Below, piece after piece: positions 1 through 48,830 of a DNA stretch of 64,000 nucleotides. Position 1 is the stretch's first letter; every line of letters starts with the position of its first letter. The stretch is taken from positions 18,566-82,565 of the forward strand of contig CAMORS010000002.1 in assembly GCA_946624005.1 (NCBI GenBank), given 5' to 3'. The notes beneath the pieces were generated by a model. It made no database searches and had not been told where the DNA came from. It saw only the letters and a list, made by a program, of their open reading frames with translations. The translations under genes and the position numbers were made by a program. Source of the DNA: an uncultured Prevotella sp. (lineage in GTDB: Bacteria > Bacteroidota > Bacteroidia > Bacteroidales > Bacteroidaceae).

Positions 1-22
1 TTGCTGTTTCTGTTTTTCTTTG

Positions 23-30
23 TAATTTTG
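23..30 (+). promoter_or_regulatory. Bacteroidetes -7 promoter box for tamB
   Basis: TAATTTTG matches the TAnnTTTG -7 consensus of the Bacteroidetes primary sigma factor. It ends six bases before the TTG proposed as the tamB start, which would make the transcript leaderless or nearly so. Confidence 0.55.
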
Positions 31-36
31 CACCGT

Positions 37-3000
37 TTGAAAACACTTAAGCGAATCGTACAAGGAGTGCTCTGGACCATTGTCGGCCTGTATGCCTTCC
101 TATTCGTACTGCTGAAGATACCGGCAGTACAGGGGTGGATTGGCTCGCAGGCAGCACATGCCCTATCCGAAAAACTGGGCACGGAGGTGAGCGTCGGTAG
201 GGTGGAGATAGGACTGTTCAACCGTATCGTTGTCGACGATGTGCAGATGGACGATCAGTCGGGCAGGCAGATGCTTCAAGCCTCGCGCTTGTCGGCAAAG
301 GCCAATATCATCGACTTGCTGGAAGGGAAGGTCAACATCTCGTCGGTACAGCTCTTCGGCGTGCAGGCCAATCTCTATCAGCAAGATGCCCAGTCGAAAC
401 CTAACTTCCAGTTTGTGCTCGACTCGCTATCGTCGAAAGACAACCAGAAGAAGTCGGCGCTCGACCTGAGCATCCACTCGCTCATTATTCGTCATGGTGC
501 CGTGAAGTTCGACCGTCTTGACCTTCCACCCACTCACGGTCGTTTCAATACAGCCCATCTCGACATCGGCAACGTGAGTGCCCACATCGTGCTGCACCGG
601 CTGACCAACAGCTTGATCGATGCACAGGTGAAGAAGCTGACGATGAGCGAAGCTTCCGGCATCGACCTCAGGTCGCTGACCGGCCGTCTGAAAGCTGACA
701 GCACCGGAGCCGTGCTGACCGATTTCGAGCTTGCCCTGCCTCGCACCCGCCTGGCTGTCCAGCAGGCAGAGGCTCACTACCAATGGAAAGACGGTGCACC
801 CGATATGCGCACGATGACCTATCGGGCCAAGGTGAAGGATGCCAATATAATGCCATCGGAGCTGGCACCTTTTGTGCCTTCTGTCAAGTCGTTTGACAGA
901 CCTCTGGTTCTTTCAATGGAAGTCAATGGCAACCGCCATAAGCATCAAATATCCAACCTCTCGGTTTTGACGTACAATCAAGGCGTTGCGCTCAGGGCGC
1001 GACAAGTATGGCTCGACACCAGCGCAAAAAGTGCCACGATGGCGGCCGCCCGTTCGGCCGACTTGACTGTCAGCGAGAAAGCCCTTGCCGAGATAGCCGA
1101 CGATTTGTCGTCGGCCAAGATTCAGCTTCCTGAACAACTGCTCCGTTTGGGCAGTATCCACTGGCAGGGCGATGCAGACTATGGTCCTCATCGGCTGTCG
1201 GCCGACGGTATGCTGACGACCGATGCCGGCCGACTGAAATTGCAAGCTGAGACGCGCGACCAAGTATTCAACGGACAGGTGGAAGCCACAGAGGTGGACA
1301 TGGGCCGCGTGCTCGACAACGAGCTGTTTGGGATGCTCTCTGCACGTTTGACAGCACAAGGGTCATGGCCTTTAAAGGATGAACTGAGTATAAAAGGAAA
1401 CATTACTGATTTTGATGTCAAATCCTATCGTTTCAACAACTTATCGGTTGATGGAAGGTTGTTGAACAAAACGATGGAAGGGCATTTCAATTTAGACGAT
1501 CCGAATGCCCAGCTGGATTTCGACGGTACCATCGACCTCAGCGCACAAGAACCGGCCGTCGTCGCTCAGGCTACTGTTCGCCACTTCAATCCGAATGCCA
1601 TCGGGCTCACACAGCAATATCCCGACACCTTCTTCGAGGCCGACATGGAGGCCGACCTGAAAGGCTCTTCGCTGAACAATGCCAACGGCTCGTTGCTCAT
1701 CAGACAGTTCAGCATGGCAGGCCCCGACCATCACTACCAGCTCGACCGCTTGGTGGTAGATGCCACATCGGAGGGAGCAGACCGCTCGTTGGCCATCGAT
1801 AGCGACTTCGGACAGGTAGCCCTTCGTGGAAAGTACGACTATAGTACACTTTCGGAGAGCATCATCCACTTCCTCTCGCAAAAGCTGCCCATGCTGCCCG
1901 GTCTGCCAAAGGTGCAACCTTCGGGCAACAACAGCTTCGCCCTTCATGCCGACATCCGGCGGAGCGACTGGCTGCAGGCCTTCTTTGGCATTCCCCTCTC
2001 GATAGAAAAGCCTTTGATTGTGGATGGCACGATCAACGATAGCCAGAAGCAGATGTTCGCCGACCTTCTGGCTCCCAGCTTCTACTTTGACGGTGGTGCT
2101 TACCAGAATGTCGTCGCCCATGTCACTACCAACGACGAAGGACAACTTGAGACGCAGACAAGCCTCACCAAACTGATGGACAACGGCAGGAAGCTCGATG
2201 TGCAGGTGGAAGCGCAGGCAGGTAGCAACGAGATTGTTTCTGCTATCACATGGGACGATCACCAGCAGCGACCGATGAAGGGACGACTGCTCAGCACCAC
2301 CGAGTTGTTCCGTAACGAGCGAGGTGAGCAGACGGCTCACATTCGTGTGCACCCATCGGAAATACAGATGGGTGATACGGCATGGCAAGTTGAGCCATCG
2401 GACATACTTTACAGTAAGAACAACCTGGTGGTCGACTATTTTGCTGTAGCCCACAACCGGCAGCACATCATCGTGCAGGGAAAGGCCACCGAGCATCGCA
2501 GCGATTCGCTCGTCGTCGACCTGAGCGACGTCGATGTCAACTACATCACCAATATGGTCAACTTCCACGCTGTCGAGTTCGGCGGCAAGGTGAGCGGCAG
2601 AGCCTGTGTGCGGTCGGCCTTCCGGCAGCCCGATGCCTATGCCGACATCAGCGTCAGGCAGTTCACCTTCGAGGAGGGGCGCTTGGGGACACTCTTCGCC
2701 AAAGCACGATGGAACAGAGAAGAAAAACAGATAGACATCGACGCCCATGCCGACGAGCCGGAAGACTCGGGCTATGGACAAACGCTCGTCAATGGGTATA
2801 TCTCACCGTCGAAACACTTCATCGACCTCGCTATCCGTCCGCGCAGGGCACGGGCCGAGTTCTTAGAGAGTTTTTGCGGTAGCTTTATGGACAATGTAGC
2901 GGTGAGCGTAACGGGCGACCTCCGTCTGGCGGGCGACTTGAGTGAAATCAACCTGACGGGCGAGGCCGTTGCTGATGGTGAGCTCGATATCACCAGTCTC

Positions 3001-4515
3001 AACACCCACTACGTGCTACGCAACGATACCATCAGGCTCATTCCTAACGAGATTATCTTCCAAAACGATACCATCCGCGACATCCCCTCCTTTGGAGGGG
3101 CTAGGGGAGGTCTCGGCATCGTCAACGGTGCCCTGCACCACCAGGCTTTGACCAACCTGACCTACGACATTGATATCAAAGCGCAGAACCTGCTCTGCTA
3201 CGACTTCCACGACTACGGCGAGAGCACCTTCTTCGGAACAGTCTACGGCACGGGCGACTGTGCTATCCGCGGGCGGCGTGGGACGATAGACTTCGACATC
3301 AACGTTACGCCCGAAGAAGGTTCGTTCATCGAGTATAACGCTGCTTCGCCCGATGCCATCACCAACCGTGAGTTTATCACATGGCGGTCGAGGGGCGAGG
3401 ATTATTCGAGGTACGAGATTTCTTCGAGGTACGAGGTACGAGGTACGAGGTACGAGAATAGTTTGGTGGAAGGCGAAGACGGTAATCTCGTACCTCGTAC
3501 CTCGCACCTCGCACCTCGAGATAACGCTTCCGACCTGCGGCTGAACTTCCTCATCAATGCCACTCCCGACTGCACGCTGCGTGTGCTGATGGATCGCGAG
3601 AGTGGCGACTGCATCGCGCTGAACGGTACGGGTGCCATCCGTGCTACCTATTATAATAAAGGTTCGTTCGATATGTTTGGCAATTATCTCATCGACCACG
3701 GTTCGTACAAGCTCACCATCCAGAACCTGATGAAGAAGGAGTTCGCGTTCCAGCCTGGCAGCGCCATCGTCTTCGGAGGCGACCCCTATCTCGCAACACT
3801 CAATCTGAACGCTCTCTACACCGTCAACGGTGTGGCTCTCTCCGACTTGCAGATAGGCCGTAGCTTCTCGTCGAACAACGTTCGTGTCGACTGTCTGATG
3901 AACATCGGCGGAACACCGCAGCAGCCTCATGTAGAGTTCGACCTTGACATGCCTACCGTCAGTGCCGACGCCAAGCAGATGGTACGTCAGCTCATCAACA
4001 GCGAAGAAGAGATGAACCAGCAGGTCATCTACCTGCTCTCCATCGGACGTTTCTATACACAGAATGCCAACAATGCCGACGAGAACCAGAGTCAGACGTC
4101 GCTCGCCATGCAGTCGCTCTTGAGTGGTACCATCAGTCAGCAGATTAACAACGTGTTGGGCACCCTTGTCCACTCGTCCAACTGGAACTTCGGAGCCAAT
4201 ATCTCTACCGGCGACGAGGGTTGGAACAATGCCGAATACGAAGGATTGCTCTCCGGCCGACTGCTCAACAACCGACTCTTGATCAACGGACAGTTTGGCT
4301 ATCGTGATAATGCCAACGCCACCACATCGTTCATCGGCGACTTCGACGTGCGCTACCTCCTGCTGCCCAACGGCAATTTGGCCGTGAAGGTGTACAACCA
4401 GACCAACGACCGCTATTTCACCCGCAGCAGTCTCAACACACAGGGCATTGGCTTTGTGTTGAAGAAAGACTTCAATTCGTGGCGCGACCTGTTTGGTTGG
4501 AGAAAGAAGAAGTAG
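37..4515 (+). CDS. tamB: TamB family translocation/assembly module protein (DUF490)
   Basis: Large inner-membrane-anchored protein expected to span the periplasm and help deliver proteins or lipids to the outer membrane. An N-terminal hydrophobic anchor (WTIVGLYAFLFVLL) follows a basic start, then about 1,000 residues of repetitive beta-rich sequence, then a C-terminal TamB domain with NFLINATPDCTLRVLMD and a YLL-rich end. The ORF track opens at base 1, but a TAATTTTG promoter box lies at 23-30, so I prefer the TTG at 37 (MKTLKRIVQ); GTG at 67 is an alternative, and an upstream start outside the window cannot be excluded. Two short repeat elements are translated in frame near codons 1016-1025 and 1118-1164. 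The last 44 bp overlap the end of the convergent HTCS gene. Confidence 0.88.
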   Translation: MKTLKRIVQGVLWTIVGLYAFLFVLLKIPAVQGWIGSQAAHALSEKLGTEVSVGRVEIGLFNRIVVDDVQMDDQSGRQMLQASRLSAKANIIDLLEGKVNISSVQLFGVQANLYQQDAQSKPNFQFVLDSLSSKDNQKKSALDLSIHSLIIRHGAVKFDRLDLPPTHGRFNTAHLDIGNVSAHIVLHRLTNSLIDAQVKKLTMSEASGIDLRSLTGRLKADSTGAVLTDFELALPRTRLAVQQAEAHYQWKDGAPDMRTMTYRAKVKDANIMPSELAPFVPSVKSFDRPLVLSMEVNGNRHKHQISNLSVLTYNQGVALRARQVWLDTSAKSATMAAARSADLTVSEKALAEIADDLSSAKIQLPEQLLRLGSIHWQGDADYGPHRLSADGMLTTDAGRLKLQAETRDQVFNGQVEATEVDMGRVLDNELFGMLSARLTAQGSWPLKDELSIKGNITDFDVKSYRFNNLSVDGRLLNKTMEGHFNLDDPNAQLDFDGTIDLSAQEPAVVAQATVRHFNPNAIGLTQQYPDTFFEADMEADLKGSSLNNANGSLLIRQFSMAGPDHHYQLDRLVVDATSEGADRSLAIDSDFGQVALRGKYDYSTLSESIIHFLSQKLPMLPGLPKVQPSGNNSFALHADIRRSDWLQAFFGIPLSIEKPLIVDGTINDSQKQMFADLLAPSFYFDGGAYQNVVAHVTTNDEGQLETQTSLTKLMDNGRKLDVQVEAQAGSNEIVSAITWDDHQQRPMKGRLLSTTELFRNERGEQTAHIRVHPSEIQMGDTAWQVEPSDILYSKNNLVVDYFAVAHNRQHIIVQGKATEHRSDSLVVDLSDVDVNYITNMVNFHAVEFGGKVSGRACVRSAFRQPDAYADISVRQFTFEEGRLGTLFAKARWNREEKQIDIDAHADEPEDSGYGQTLVNGYISPSKHFIDLAIRPRRARAEFLESFCGSFMDNVAVSVTGDLRLAGDLSEINLTGEAVADGELDITSLNTHYVLRNDTIRLIPNEIIFQNDTIRDIPSFGGARGGLGIVNGALHHQALTNLTYDIDIKAQNLLCYDFHDYGESTFFGTVYGTGDCAIRGRRGTIDFDINVTPEEGSFIEYNAASPDAITNREFITWRSRGEDYSRYEISSRYEVRGTRYENSLVEGEDGNLVPRTSHLAPRDNASDLRLNFLINATPDCTLRVLMDRESGDCIALNGTGAIRATYYNKGSFDMFGNYLIDHGSYKLTIQNLMKKEFAFQPGSAIVFGGDPYLATLNLNALYTVNGVALSDLQIGRSFSSNNVRVDCLMNIGGTPQQPHVEFDLDMPTVSADAKQMVRQLINSEEEMNQQVIYLLSIGRFYTQNANNADENQSQTSLAMQSLLSGTISQQINNVLGTLVHSSNWNFGANISTGDEGWNNAEYEGLLSGRLLNNRLLINGQFGYRDNANATTSFIGDFDVRYLLLPNGNLAVKVYNQTNDRYFTRSSLNTQGIGFVLKKDFNSWRDLFGWRKKK
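3083..3110. repeat. Family E C/G-rich hairpin repeat inside tamB
   Basis: TCCCCTCCTTTGGAGGGG plus CTAGGGGAGG forms an inverted repeat. Related sequences occur between genes at about 13740-13771, 18241-18270 and 41097-41125. Here it is translated in frame as roughly IPSFGGARGG. Confidence 0.7.
3387..3526. repeat. Family A palindromic element translated inside tamB
   Basis: Left arm of tandem TACGAGG heptads, a 33-nt core (3454-3486) and a right arm of CTCGTAC/CTCGCAC heptads. The flanks GGCGAGGATTATTCGAGG and CCTCGAGATAAC recur at 12092-12220 on the opposite strand. The tamB frame reads SRGEDYSRYE...VPRTSHLAPRDN, almost the same peptide as the element at 12.1 kb would encode on the minus strand. 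The segment is uninterrupted by stops. Confidence 0.85.
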
Positions 4516-11368: not shown

Positions 11369-11449
11369 CAATATTTTTTGTATAAACCCTTGTGTGTTCT
11401 GAAAAAAATACAATTATTTCGGTAAAAATGTTGTTTTTCTTTCTTCATC

Positions 11450-11615
11450 GAGGGTGCGGGGGTTCTATTCGAGGGTGCGGGGGTACGAGGGTACGAGGGT
11501 GCGAGATTAGCTTTGTCGCTTGGCACAGATGTATTCTCGTACCCCCGTACCCCCGTACCCTCGTACCCTCGATCTTTATTCTCGTACCCACGTACCTTCG
11601 TACCCACGATATACC
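11450..11615. repeat. Family A palindromic repeat, GGGTACGA variant
   Basis: Left arm of 8-bp units (cgagggtacgagggtgcgag), a 33-nt core starting ATTA and ending TATTCTC (11506-11538), then a right arm of GTACCCCC/GTACCCTC units. A second half-arm follows after another TTATTCTC (11577-11610). Confidence 0.8.
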
Positions 11616-11626
11616 ATGCGTCCCTG

Positions 11627-11736
11627 GAGGTCGTTGATGGTCTCTGATGAGGTCGTTGATGGTCTCTGATGAGGTCGTTGATGGTTTCTGATGTTGTCGT
11701 TGATAGTTTCTGATGTTGTCGTTGATAGTCTCTGAT
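11627..11736. repeat. Family B 22-bp tandem array (5 units)
   Basis: Five complete units of 22 bp; the first two are identical GAGGTCGTTGATGGTCTCTGAT and the last two begin GTTGTCGTTGATAGT. The array lies between the GH2-GH43 promoter and the end of the glycogen operon. Related arrays occur at 18520-18660 and 42964-43088. Confidence 0.85.
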
Positions 11737-12050
11737 AGCATAAAGAACGGAGAATGAATAGCTGATCAAATAGTTTGTGGGTGCTTTCAAAGGCCATCTG
11801 GTTGAGTGGATTGCGCATTCTGTAACGTGTTACAGATCTGTAGCATGATGTGTTACAATGGAAAAATGTGATTAAACCGTTGACCTATAGTGAGTTATAC
11901 TCAATGTCTTAAATCTTGTAACACTTGTACACTTTAAATGCAATAAATTAAGGTTACATCAAGAAAATAAATATTTATAAGGTAAGAATAGAAAAGATGT
12001 GTAGCATCTGTATCTGTTACAAAAGAGCCTGGCCCACTGCTTTGAGCTGA
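11737..12050. other. Intergenic stretch without recognised gene
   Basis: A/T-rich spacer with scattered GTTACA/TGTAAC words (for example TGTAACGTGTTACA near 11821). I see no convincing coding sequence, RNA gene or promoter box pointing to a neighbour. Confidence 0.5.
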
Positions 12051-12059
12051 TGCCTTTCT

Positions 12060-12222
12060 TCATCGAGGGTGCGGGGGTGCGGGGGTGCGAGATTACTGTT
12101 ATCTCGAGGTGCGAGGTGCGAGGTACGAGGTACGAGATTACTGTCAGGCCCTTCAATACTATTCTCGCCCAACGTACCTCGTACCTCGTACCTCGAATAA
12201 TCCTCGCCTCTCGACCTTGTCG
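12060..12222. repeat. Family A palindromic repeat, TACGAGG variant
   Basis: Contains a half-arm of GGGTGCGG units ending in TGCGAGATTA, then a full element: heptads CGAGGTG/CGAGGTA, 30-nt core ATTACTG...TATTCTC (12137-12166), then GTACCTC heptads and CGAATAATCCTCGCC. The minus strand encodes SRGEDYSRYEVRGT...VPRTSHLAPRDN, matching the tamB insert. Confidence 0.85.
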
Positions 12223-18519: not shown

Positions 18520-18660
18520 GATGGCCTGAACAGGCGTCGGAGATGGCTTCTGAGCATGTCGCAGATACTTTCTGAGCAGGTCAGAGACTATCCCTGACCA
18601 GGTCAGAGATGGTTGCTGAGCTTGTCAAATACTATCTCTGACAATGTCAGCAACCATCTC
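18520..18660. repeat. Family B 22-bp tandem array (degenerate)
   Basis: About six diverged units, for example GCAGGTCAGAGACTATCCCTGA and GCTTGTCAAATACTATCTCTGA, exactly 22 bp apart. Aligned units share the pattern GnTCnnnGAnnnTnnCTGAnn with the arrays at 11.6 and 43.0 kb. Lies between two convergent genes. Confidence 0.75.
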
Positions 18661-23016: not shown

Positions 23017-23616
23017 TTATCTGACGGTGATGGTTTCTTCGTCGAGCGTGAGGCTGACGTGCTCAAACTGGTCTAATGTGCTGACGATGTCGGTAAGCGG
23101 TGTTGTGCTGTCCCATTCATAGTAGAGCCGCAGATGGCGCACTTCGTCGTTCTCGTATCGCACGCGTACCTTATAATATATAGCCATCTCGCCAAGCATC
23201 TGCTCCAGTTCGATGTTCTCGAAAATTTTGTGAACGCTTTCCGTCGGTGCCTCCTGTTGAGTTCCGGTTTGCGACAAACTGTCGGAAAGATGGTTGCCGG
23301 AAGCTTTCTGAACCTTTTCCACCGGTTCCACAGTCCTCTGTGACATTCGTTCTCCCCTTGTCAGCACATGGTAGGCAGCAAACGACAGGGTGGACGCGAG
23401 CAGCAGTCCGGCGAATACCGCGGCTATGCGAAGCTGCTTCCGATGGGAGCGGCGTTTGCGGCTGAACGCTTCTTCGGCAGTCACCATCAGCTCGTAGTAG
23501 GCGAGCATCTCTTCGTCGGCGAGCAGCTGGTTCAGCTCTTCGTCGGTGAAACGCTCCGGATGGTCGGTCATCAGCAGGAGCCGTTCCAGTTTGGTGTTGT
23601 TTTCTTCTCGGTTCAT
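23017..23616 (-). CDS. FecR-like anti-sigma factor (short form)
   Basis: 199 residues: a cytoplasmic N terminus with acidic helices (FTDEELNQLLADEEMLAYYELM), one membrane helix (RIAAVFAGLLLASTLSFAAYHVL), a polar linker, and a C-terminal DUF4974-like domain (FENIELEQMLGEMAIYYKVRVRYEN). The usual central FecR domain appears to be missing, so it is shorter than most Bacteroidetes FecR proteins. It should hold the adjacent ECF sigma factor inactive and touch the STN domain of the barrel protein. Flanked by 3 bp and 11 bp gaps, so it is certainly co-transcribed. Confidence 0.82.
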   Translation of the reverse strand: MNREENNTKLERLLLMTDHPERFTDEELNQLLADEEMLAYYELMVTAEEAFSRKRRSHRKQLRIAAVFAGLLLASTLSFAAYHVLTRGERMSQRTVEPVEKVQKASGNHLSDSLSQTGTQQEAPTESVHKIFENIELEQMLGEMAIYYKVRVRYENDEVRHLRLYYEWDSTTPLTDIVSTLDQFEHVSLTLDEETITVR

Positions 23617-23619
23617 GGG

Positions 23620-24102
23620 TCAGGAATTAAAATGTTGTTTCAGTTTCGTCAAAGCTTGCGACAAGTGCTTGTAGACGGCCACTTCGCTGATATTCAGTCG
23701 CTTGGCAATATCTTTATACTTCAGATGTTCGTCGAACCGCAGCTGAAAGACACGCCATGTTTGGGGCGTGAAGGTCTGTTCGGCATAGTTTAGCAGTTCG
23801 CTCAGCAGTTCTTCTCGGTCGTTCTCTTCCGTTGGCGACGGCTCGTTGAGCGTCAGTCGACGCTTGATGCGCTCGCGAACAGAGAGATGTTTCAGACGGT
23901 CGATACACGCGTTGCGCACACATCCCATCAGATAAGCCTCAGCACCGATGTCAGGCACAACGAGCGTTCCTTCCGTCAGCCGCACGAAGAGGTCGGCCAC
24001 CACGTCGCGGCTCTCCTCCGCATCGTGAAGCATCTGCGCTGCCTTCTGTTCCATTCCAGGACGCAATCGGCGGTAGATATCGATGGTTTGCTGCCTGTTC
24101 AT
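23620..24102 (-). CDS. ECF RNA polymerase sigma-70 factor
   Basis: Region 2 (AEESRDVVADLFVRL, YLMGCVRNACIDRLKH) and region 4 (TWRVFQLRFDEHLKYKDIAKRLNISEVAVYKHLSQALTKLKQHF) are clear. It probably directs transcription of its own operon with the anti-sigma factor, the outer-membrane protein and the transglutaminase-like protein. The track begins at GTG 24165, but MNRQQTIDIYRRLRPG at 24102 is the better start and gives a normal 160-residue protein. No TAnnTTTG box was found directly upstream, which would fit autoregulation by the ECF factor itself. Confidence 0.9.
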   Translation of the reverse strand: MNRQQTIDIYRRLRPGMEQKAAQMLHDAEESRDVVADLFVRLTEGTLVVPDIGAEAYLMGCVRNACIDRLKHLSVRERIKRRLTLNEPSPTEENDREELLSELLNYAEQTFTPQTWRVFQLRFDEHLKYKDIAKRLNISEVAVYKHLSQALTKLKQHFNS

Positions 24103-42963: not shown

Positions 42964-43088
42964 TGATGATCTCCGACTTGCTCGTAGATAATCTCTGACC
43001 TGCTCGTAGATAATCTCTGACCTGCTCGTAGATAATCTCTGACCCTATCAAAGACCATCTCTGACATGCTCAAAGACCATCTCTGACG
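42964..43088. repeat. Family B 22-bp tandem array
   Basis: GATAATCTCTGACCTGCTCGTA occurs at 22-bp spacing with near-perfect copies, preceded by GATGATCTCCGACTTGCTCGTA and followed by diverged units GACCATCTCTGACATGCTCAAA. Lies about 170 bp upstream of the DnaJ-like gene. Confidence 0.85.
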
Positions 43089-48720: not shown

Positions 48721-48752
48721 TCGAGGGTACGAGGGTACGAGGGTGCGAGATT
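48721..48752. repeat. Family A half-element
   Basis: tcgagggtacgagggtacg then AGGGTGCGAGATTA: the left arm and ATTA boundary of family A without a matching right arm. Confidence 0.75.
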
Positions 48753-48830
48753 ACATTTGTTGTTGTTTCGAGGCACACTGCATGGGGTACGGCTGAGCGG
48801 GGAGTGTGGAACTCCCCGCTGTAGGTCGCT

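Follow-up and report, generated by a model that had tools for sequence, protein, structure and literature searches.

Short palindromic inserts with tandem-unit arms and a fixed core boundary, placed in frame in genes of an uncultured Prevotella

Palindromic copies in the window and their anatomy

The window, by which we mean the whole 64,000-nucleotide stretch of DNA that was analysed (G000:C2:18566-82565), belongs to a 2.64 Mb genome in 127 contigs (82% complete), whose nearest named relatives on the basis of ksgA are Prevotella assemblies from rumen and gut. It begins within a tamB-like gene on the plus strand (1..4515, an open reading frame of 1504 amino acids that touches the window edge), which holds in frame the first of three full copies of a palindromic element. 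This first copy is an insert at 3385..3519 on the minus strand, consisting of outer partial units (3385-3423) and a hairpin of 4 + 4 heptads (3424-3519), the latter enclosing a 36 nt core, GAGATTA..TATTCTC, at 3454..3489 (minus strand); it reads as ...SRYEVRGTRYENSLVEGEDGNLVPRTSHLAPR, and ENSLVEGEDGNLVPR is a stretch of the TamB insert peptide. The second copy is an intergenic hairpin of 4 + 4 octads at 11469..11572 (plus strand) with a 36 nt core at 11503..11538 (plus strand), it is preceded on its 5' side by a partial outer octad arm (11449..11464, plus strand) and followed by an additional outer octad arm which opens with a second TATTCTC (11577..11609, minus strand). The third copy, an intergenic heptad hairpin at 12104..12196 (plus strand) with a 33 nt core at 12134..12166 (plus strand), is adjoined by a half module of 3 octads and GAGATTA (12064..12095, plus strand). 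Lone half modules also exist, for example a half copy at 48722..48753 (plus strand) made up of a T-run, 3 octads and GCGAGATTA, without a right arm. The layout, three cores and one half copy reported in a preliminary description of this DNA were all found within one base, the half copy being one base off its earlier position, and the core lengths given there (33, 33 and 30 nt) are reproduced when GAG is left out of the count.

In tamB and at 12105 the arms consist of heptads, (CGAGGTR)x4; those at 11470 consist of octads, (CGRGGGTR)x4. Compared with dinucleotide shuffles, the hairpins fold with z-scores of -9.0 (tamB), -12.7 (11469-11572) and -8.0 (12104-12196), and none of 200 shuffles folded as well, whilst a search of the window against Rfam returned nothing above the gathering score. 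Two further kinds of repeat occur in the window: 22-nt tandem repeats (GAGGTCGTTGATGGTCTCTGAT, GATAATCTCTGACCTGCTCGTA) at 11627-11736, 18536-18621 and 42965-43087, apparently a separate repeat family, and a second small in-frame palindrome within tamB at 3083-3115, CCCCTCCTTTGGAGGGGCTAGGGGAGG (IPSFGGARGGLGI), similar to a palindrome in the tamB linker of another genome (G348).

An element reads, in order, as a T-rich flank, four G-rich units of 7 or 8 nt, GAGATTAC, the core, CTATTCTC and four units reverse-complemented, with T at position -1 of the outer flank in 92 of 106 distinct ends. Heptad runs (unit CGAGGTR) have exactly four units in 34 of 51 cases; octad runs (unit CGRGGGTR) have four in 21 and two in 27 of 61. 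GAGATTA and TATTCTC pair fully save for one T.T mismatch, and the element therefore has polarity, the copies at L085 and L114 showing instead the perfect, mismatch-free form TAATCTC. Other forms of the boundary are CATTCTC, TATCCTC and TGTTCTC, so that it accepts a few variants rather than varying freely. Nested within some cores is a 30-nt module, CCAAAGGTCGGCGCCTACGGGGAAAGCCAA in either orientation, or another such module, CATTCCCGAGCAGAGCTCGCCTACCCGTAGCC. These boundary variants, the nested modules of the 30-nt class and the mostly intragenic, in-frame placement of the copies had been overlooked in the preliminary description. Absence of stops from all six frames of the arms was considered as a sign of design and dropped, since half of all 7-mers share this property. 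Two related arrangements were also seen: downstream of a gene, L110:1472-1568 holds three tandem 35-nt blocks of five heptads (14 heptads in a single run) which form no hairpin, and in-gene octad arrays at L093:3731-3761, L093:4232-4262 and L095:3410-3526, related in layout, have GAGAACATCTCTC in place of GAGATTA as boundary and translate in frame as ENISRTPAPSHPRTPENIS.

The elements form a genome-wide family. When the layout was searched for as a pattern across the genome, further copies emerged, with 14 exact cores in all (GAGATTA-N10..40-TATTCTC) against 0 in a reversed control, and some 75 arm clusters (75 counted in the stretches fetched from the genome). On the two strands, the heptad-pair pattern gave 83 + 82 matches and the octad-pair pattern 105 + 100, with 0 to 5 in controls. 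Elsewhere in the taxonomic family the exact core pattern typically occurs 0-3 times per genome, in unrelated sequences, and a single genome with 11 matches owes them all to unrelated sequence; among 399 family genomes searched with the strict core pattern, it was found in the present genome plus one chance match, which indicates that the exact core is clade-limited. Heptads combined with a core are present in 20 of 299 genomes of the genus, eight of these with at least six matches. The exact patterns were absent from IMG/VR viral contigs, and a plasmid search for the element gave no match.

Placement in genes and reading frame

Open frames of at least 200 amino acids contain 62 of the 75 clusters, the same rate as for random intervals of equal length (0.84), which implies that genes are not avoided by the copies, unlike the case of extragenic REP repeats. 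Hosts identified by curated models are RsmA/KsgA (equivalog, 243 bits with the insert in place), Dxs (693 bits), DcuA/DcuB (489 bits), CobQ, the CbiE-CbiT linker, TamB, a cyclomaltodextrinase-type alpha-amylase, GH3, an M16 peptidase and an LpxL/HtrB-type acyltransferase. The domain match runs unbroken across the insert in DcuA/B, TamB, the amylase and GH3; in the case of TamB the Pfam match (170 bits) covers residues 1034-1491 without a break, including the insert at 1141-1172. For KsgA, an AlphaFold model derived from relatives shows the insert (77-114) flanked by a helix and a strand, itself lacking secondary structure and having a pLDDT below 50. The insert probably adds a hydrophilic, disordered loop of ~30-70 residues where proteins have surface loops, linkers or C-terminal junctions. 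A set of secreted-protein C-termini (YDLQGRxV ... KKGxYIxNGKK; L085, L089, L098, L106, L114, L115 and L116) carries the insert at an identical junction, at which paralogues in L004 and L057 have none.

Core length is divisible by 3 in 25 of 26 automatically detected cores, the sole exception (L120) being a spurious intergenic match without a right arm, and the intergenic copies likewise have core lengths divisible by 3. The 20 in-gene cores scored are read in one common frame, EN[S/T/G/Q]..[G/S]NL on the coding strand, with a mean GRAVY of -1.22; among the open frames of each core it ranks first in hydrophilicity in 15 cases and second in 5, and over in-gene copies as a whole this single one of the six frames is used almost without exception. 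By hand tally, 21 of 22 in-gene copies have one and the same orientation relative to their host gene (binomial p 1e-5); the CobQ copy is the exception, and for one of the 21, L099:1503, the host is only weakly assigned. Selection on the peptide, polarity of insertion, or both may underlie this polarity, and coding constraint, rather than recognition by an enzyme, could account for some of the conservation of the boundary.

Occupied sites and their content in other genomes

The cleanest view of turnover comes from one sister pair of incomplete assemblies, the present genome (82% complete) and that of a sister species, G332 (68% complete), between which flanks are 84-100% identical, mostly above 90%. 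We compared 16 orthologous sites, a count which takes in one site without a separate identity score: 15 are occupied in the sister species and one (L081) is empty, with diverged flanks; the frame readout there is not meaningful. The insert is nearly unchanged at five occupied sites (identity 0.97-0.98), and at the cbiE-cbiT site its length in the two genomes differs by exactly three heptads, a 21 nt change that keeps the frame. At eight sites the whole content has been replaced (element identity 0.51-0.57), including switches from heptads to octads between flanks that are 88-99% identical; the least clean of the eight is L100, with a right flank of 84%. The tamB site of the first copy holds a different element of 159 nt in the sister species. 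Length differences at the 16 sites, and at two further sites in G304, are all divisible by 3 (about 11 are non-zero), and the frames are open in both sister genomes wherever the comparison is valid. Judged by sequence comparison, the site is conserved while its content is exchanged. No exact pre-insertion site with near-identical flanks was recovered among the empty relatives, which are too diverged or, as at tamB, have naturally variable linkers.

Near-identical copies also occur at unlinked positions. The intergenic third copy of the window is 98.8% identical over 82 nt (about 12102-12183) to a copy within an aminotransferase gene on contig C6, which implies that copies have passed from coding to non-coding positions or the reverse. 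The same contig carries a high-copy dispersed repeat (L287:18527-18916; G000:C6 about 23526-23915), which matches some 50 contigs of the sister species.

Across more distant Prevotella, the position of the KsgA insert is either empty or occupied by hairpins built of unrelated units: GAGGAGT heptads (L138, L180), GGAAAGT heptads (L183) or mixed octads (L130), with CGAGGTR units in L201 and G304. The boundary at this site, GAGAATAGT..GGTAATCTC (GAGAATA..TAATCTC), is exact in L138 and L180 and partial in the rest. At the tamB site, 26 relatives have a hydrophilic linker that varies (22-64 residues); G529 has an ENS..SNL insert with different arms there, whilst G348, G452 and G304 have different palindromes, in frame. 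The pattern in which the boundary is fixed and the arms change, noted from the window copies in the preliminary description, is real and is seen in other species too, where the arms are built of unrelated units.

Nature of the elements and comparison with known repeats

The best-known palindromic repeats that code for protein are those of intracellular Alphaproteobacteria (Rickettsia, Wolbachia), and in the case of an insert-bearing Rickettsia gmk the host protein has been shown to be translated and active. To our knowledge, how these repeats move has stayed open. Rickettsia RPE and the Wolbachia repeats are dispersed elements of ~100-150 bp, many of them in frame in conserved genes, for which mobility is inferred and the mobiliser unknown (Ogata et al.; reviewed in PMC2229807, PMC10969869). 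The Prevotella elements share with RPE the dispersed palindrome of ~100-150 bp with a long stem-loop and the in-frame insertion into conserved protein genes. They differ in that they occur in a different phylum, have what appears to be a different sequence, have arms of four tandem 7/8-nt units which change from species to species around a constant core boundary, and retain the insert at orthologous sites while exchanging its content. By these features the Prevotella family appears to work like RPE, which we mean as an analogy and not as a claim to membership in RPE proper. PARCELs are also palindromic, coding and thought to be mobile; these, however, are tandem 25-residue domains of their own repeat proteins, whereas the Prevotella elements are single inserts in unrelated housekeeping proteins (PMC2996958).

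We consider it probable that the elements are short, non-autonomous, protein-coding palindromic repeats which spread by copying and are tolerated in genes as read-through extra protein. We infer that the inserts are translated and that copying between sites proceeds by ectopic recombination or by a transposition activity which recognises the hairpin. An occupied site would have its content swapped over time for another copy or variant, including exchanges of heptad for octad arms and the reverse, and frame-breaking outcomes would be purged by selection. Ectopic gene conversion between copies could account for whole-content replacement at fixed sites, although heptad-to-octad swaps, having little arm homology in common, are a difficulty for it; the common boundary motif may serve as a point of recombination or recognition. 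Of the selection or mobilising/processing enzyme proposed in the preliminary description, selection stands, partly on frame and hydrophilicity, whilst our searches found no mobilising enzyme. A more specific reading, in which a boundary-recognising recombination activity swaps entire cassettes, in frame, at set positions of the chromosome while core boundary and frame stay constant, is unlikely in our judgement; if true, this Prevotella lineage would continually reshuffle the loops of its housekeeping proteins, with arm units wholly replaceable (heptad to octad).

The preliminary description had also pointed to a REP-associated tyrosine transposase. REPs have as their defining mark a GTAG/CGTC tag at the hairpin foot. 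REP/REPIN-type elements moved by a Y1 HUH transposase (TnpA-REP/RAYT) on a single-stranded hairpin resemble the present ones in being short hairpins with a mismatch, here the conserved T.T at the boundary, in many copies per genome, and two short Y1_Tnp proteins are encoded in the genome. The distribution of Y1_Tnp does not follow the elements, however: it was not found in the element-rich, incomplete genomes G304, G452, G348 and G427 and is present in element-poor ones, and neither Y1 gene of the present genome is adjoined by copies, whereas Y1 genes of REP systems are usually repeat-flanked. The Prevotella elements are, moreover, longer and mostly intragenic by location, at the frequency of random intervals, contrary to extragenic REPs. 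We therefore regard this origin as improbable. At one of six Y1 loci checked, heptad hairpin copies do lie near the gene (L267:150-341, in G299).

Local evolution of simple repeats, by slippage of heptads or octads and template-switch perfection of quasi-palindromes without transfer between sites, would suit the tandem units and the loss of exactly three heptads at cbiE-cbiT. It also has a precedent in the G-rich heptamers of Xanthomonas (GGGAATC) and Nostoc, which share heptad units with a modal four per array and, in Xanthomonas, mostly four units, frequent close inverted pairs, no link to mobile elements and sites mostly shared by sister species, as far as the consulted part of that account goes (PMC4692102). 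That part gives the Xanthomonas heptamers as mainly intergenic (7-11% intragenic), unlike the Prevotella elements, and mentions neither a fixed core boundary nor an octad class, a constraint on frame or any swapping of content (PMC4692102). Slippage is, however, a quite improbable explanation, as cores of 20-50 nt and the nested 30-nt modules recur in unlinked genes, and slippage cannot yield a change from heptads to octads together with core replacement between 88-99% identical flanks. Very improbable is the view that selection acts on the protein, favouring the hydrophilic linker as useful, and that the palindrome is a by-product: a single hydrophilic frame is used throughout and the tamB site is such a linker in all 26 relatives compared, yet intergenic copies without coding function keep an intact hairpin whose core length is a multiple of 3, and one DNA sequence is found in many unrelated hosts. 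Chimeric metagenome assembly at repeats is hardly credible even though most relatives, like this genome itself, are available as fragmented assemblies, as near-identical inserts occupy five sites in two separate assemblies, the inserts are in frame and one KsgA site is occupied across several species.

The non-autonomous, protein-coding palindromic repeats that we favour would place a class comparable to those of Rickettsia and Wolbachia in gut and rumen Bacteroidetes, for which we found no account of such inserts in the open-access literature; genomes there hold dozens of copies, sister species are at hand for comparison and turnover at fixed sites can be measured. In TamB and other conserved proteins, extra loops would be swapped without loss of frame, and the inserts (YEVRGTRYEV / LVPRTSHLAPR peptides) will confuse Prevotella annotation, protein family models and structure predictions.
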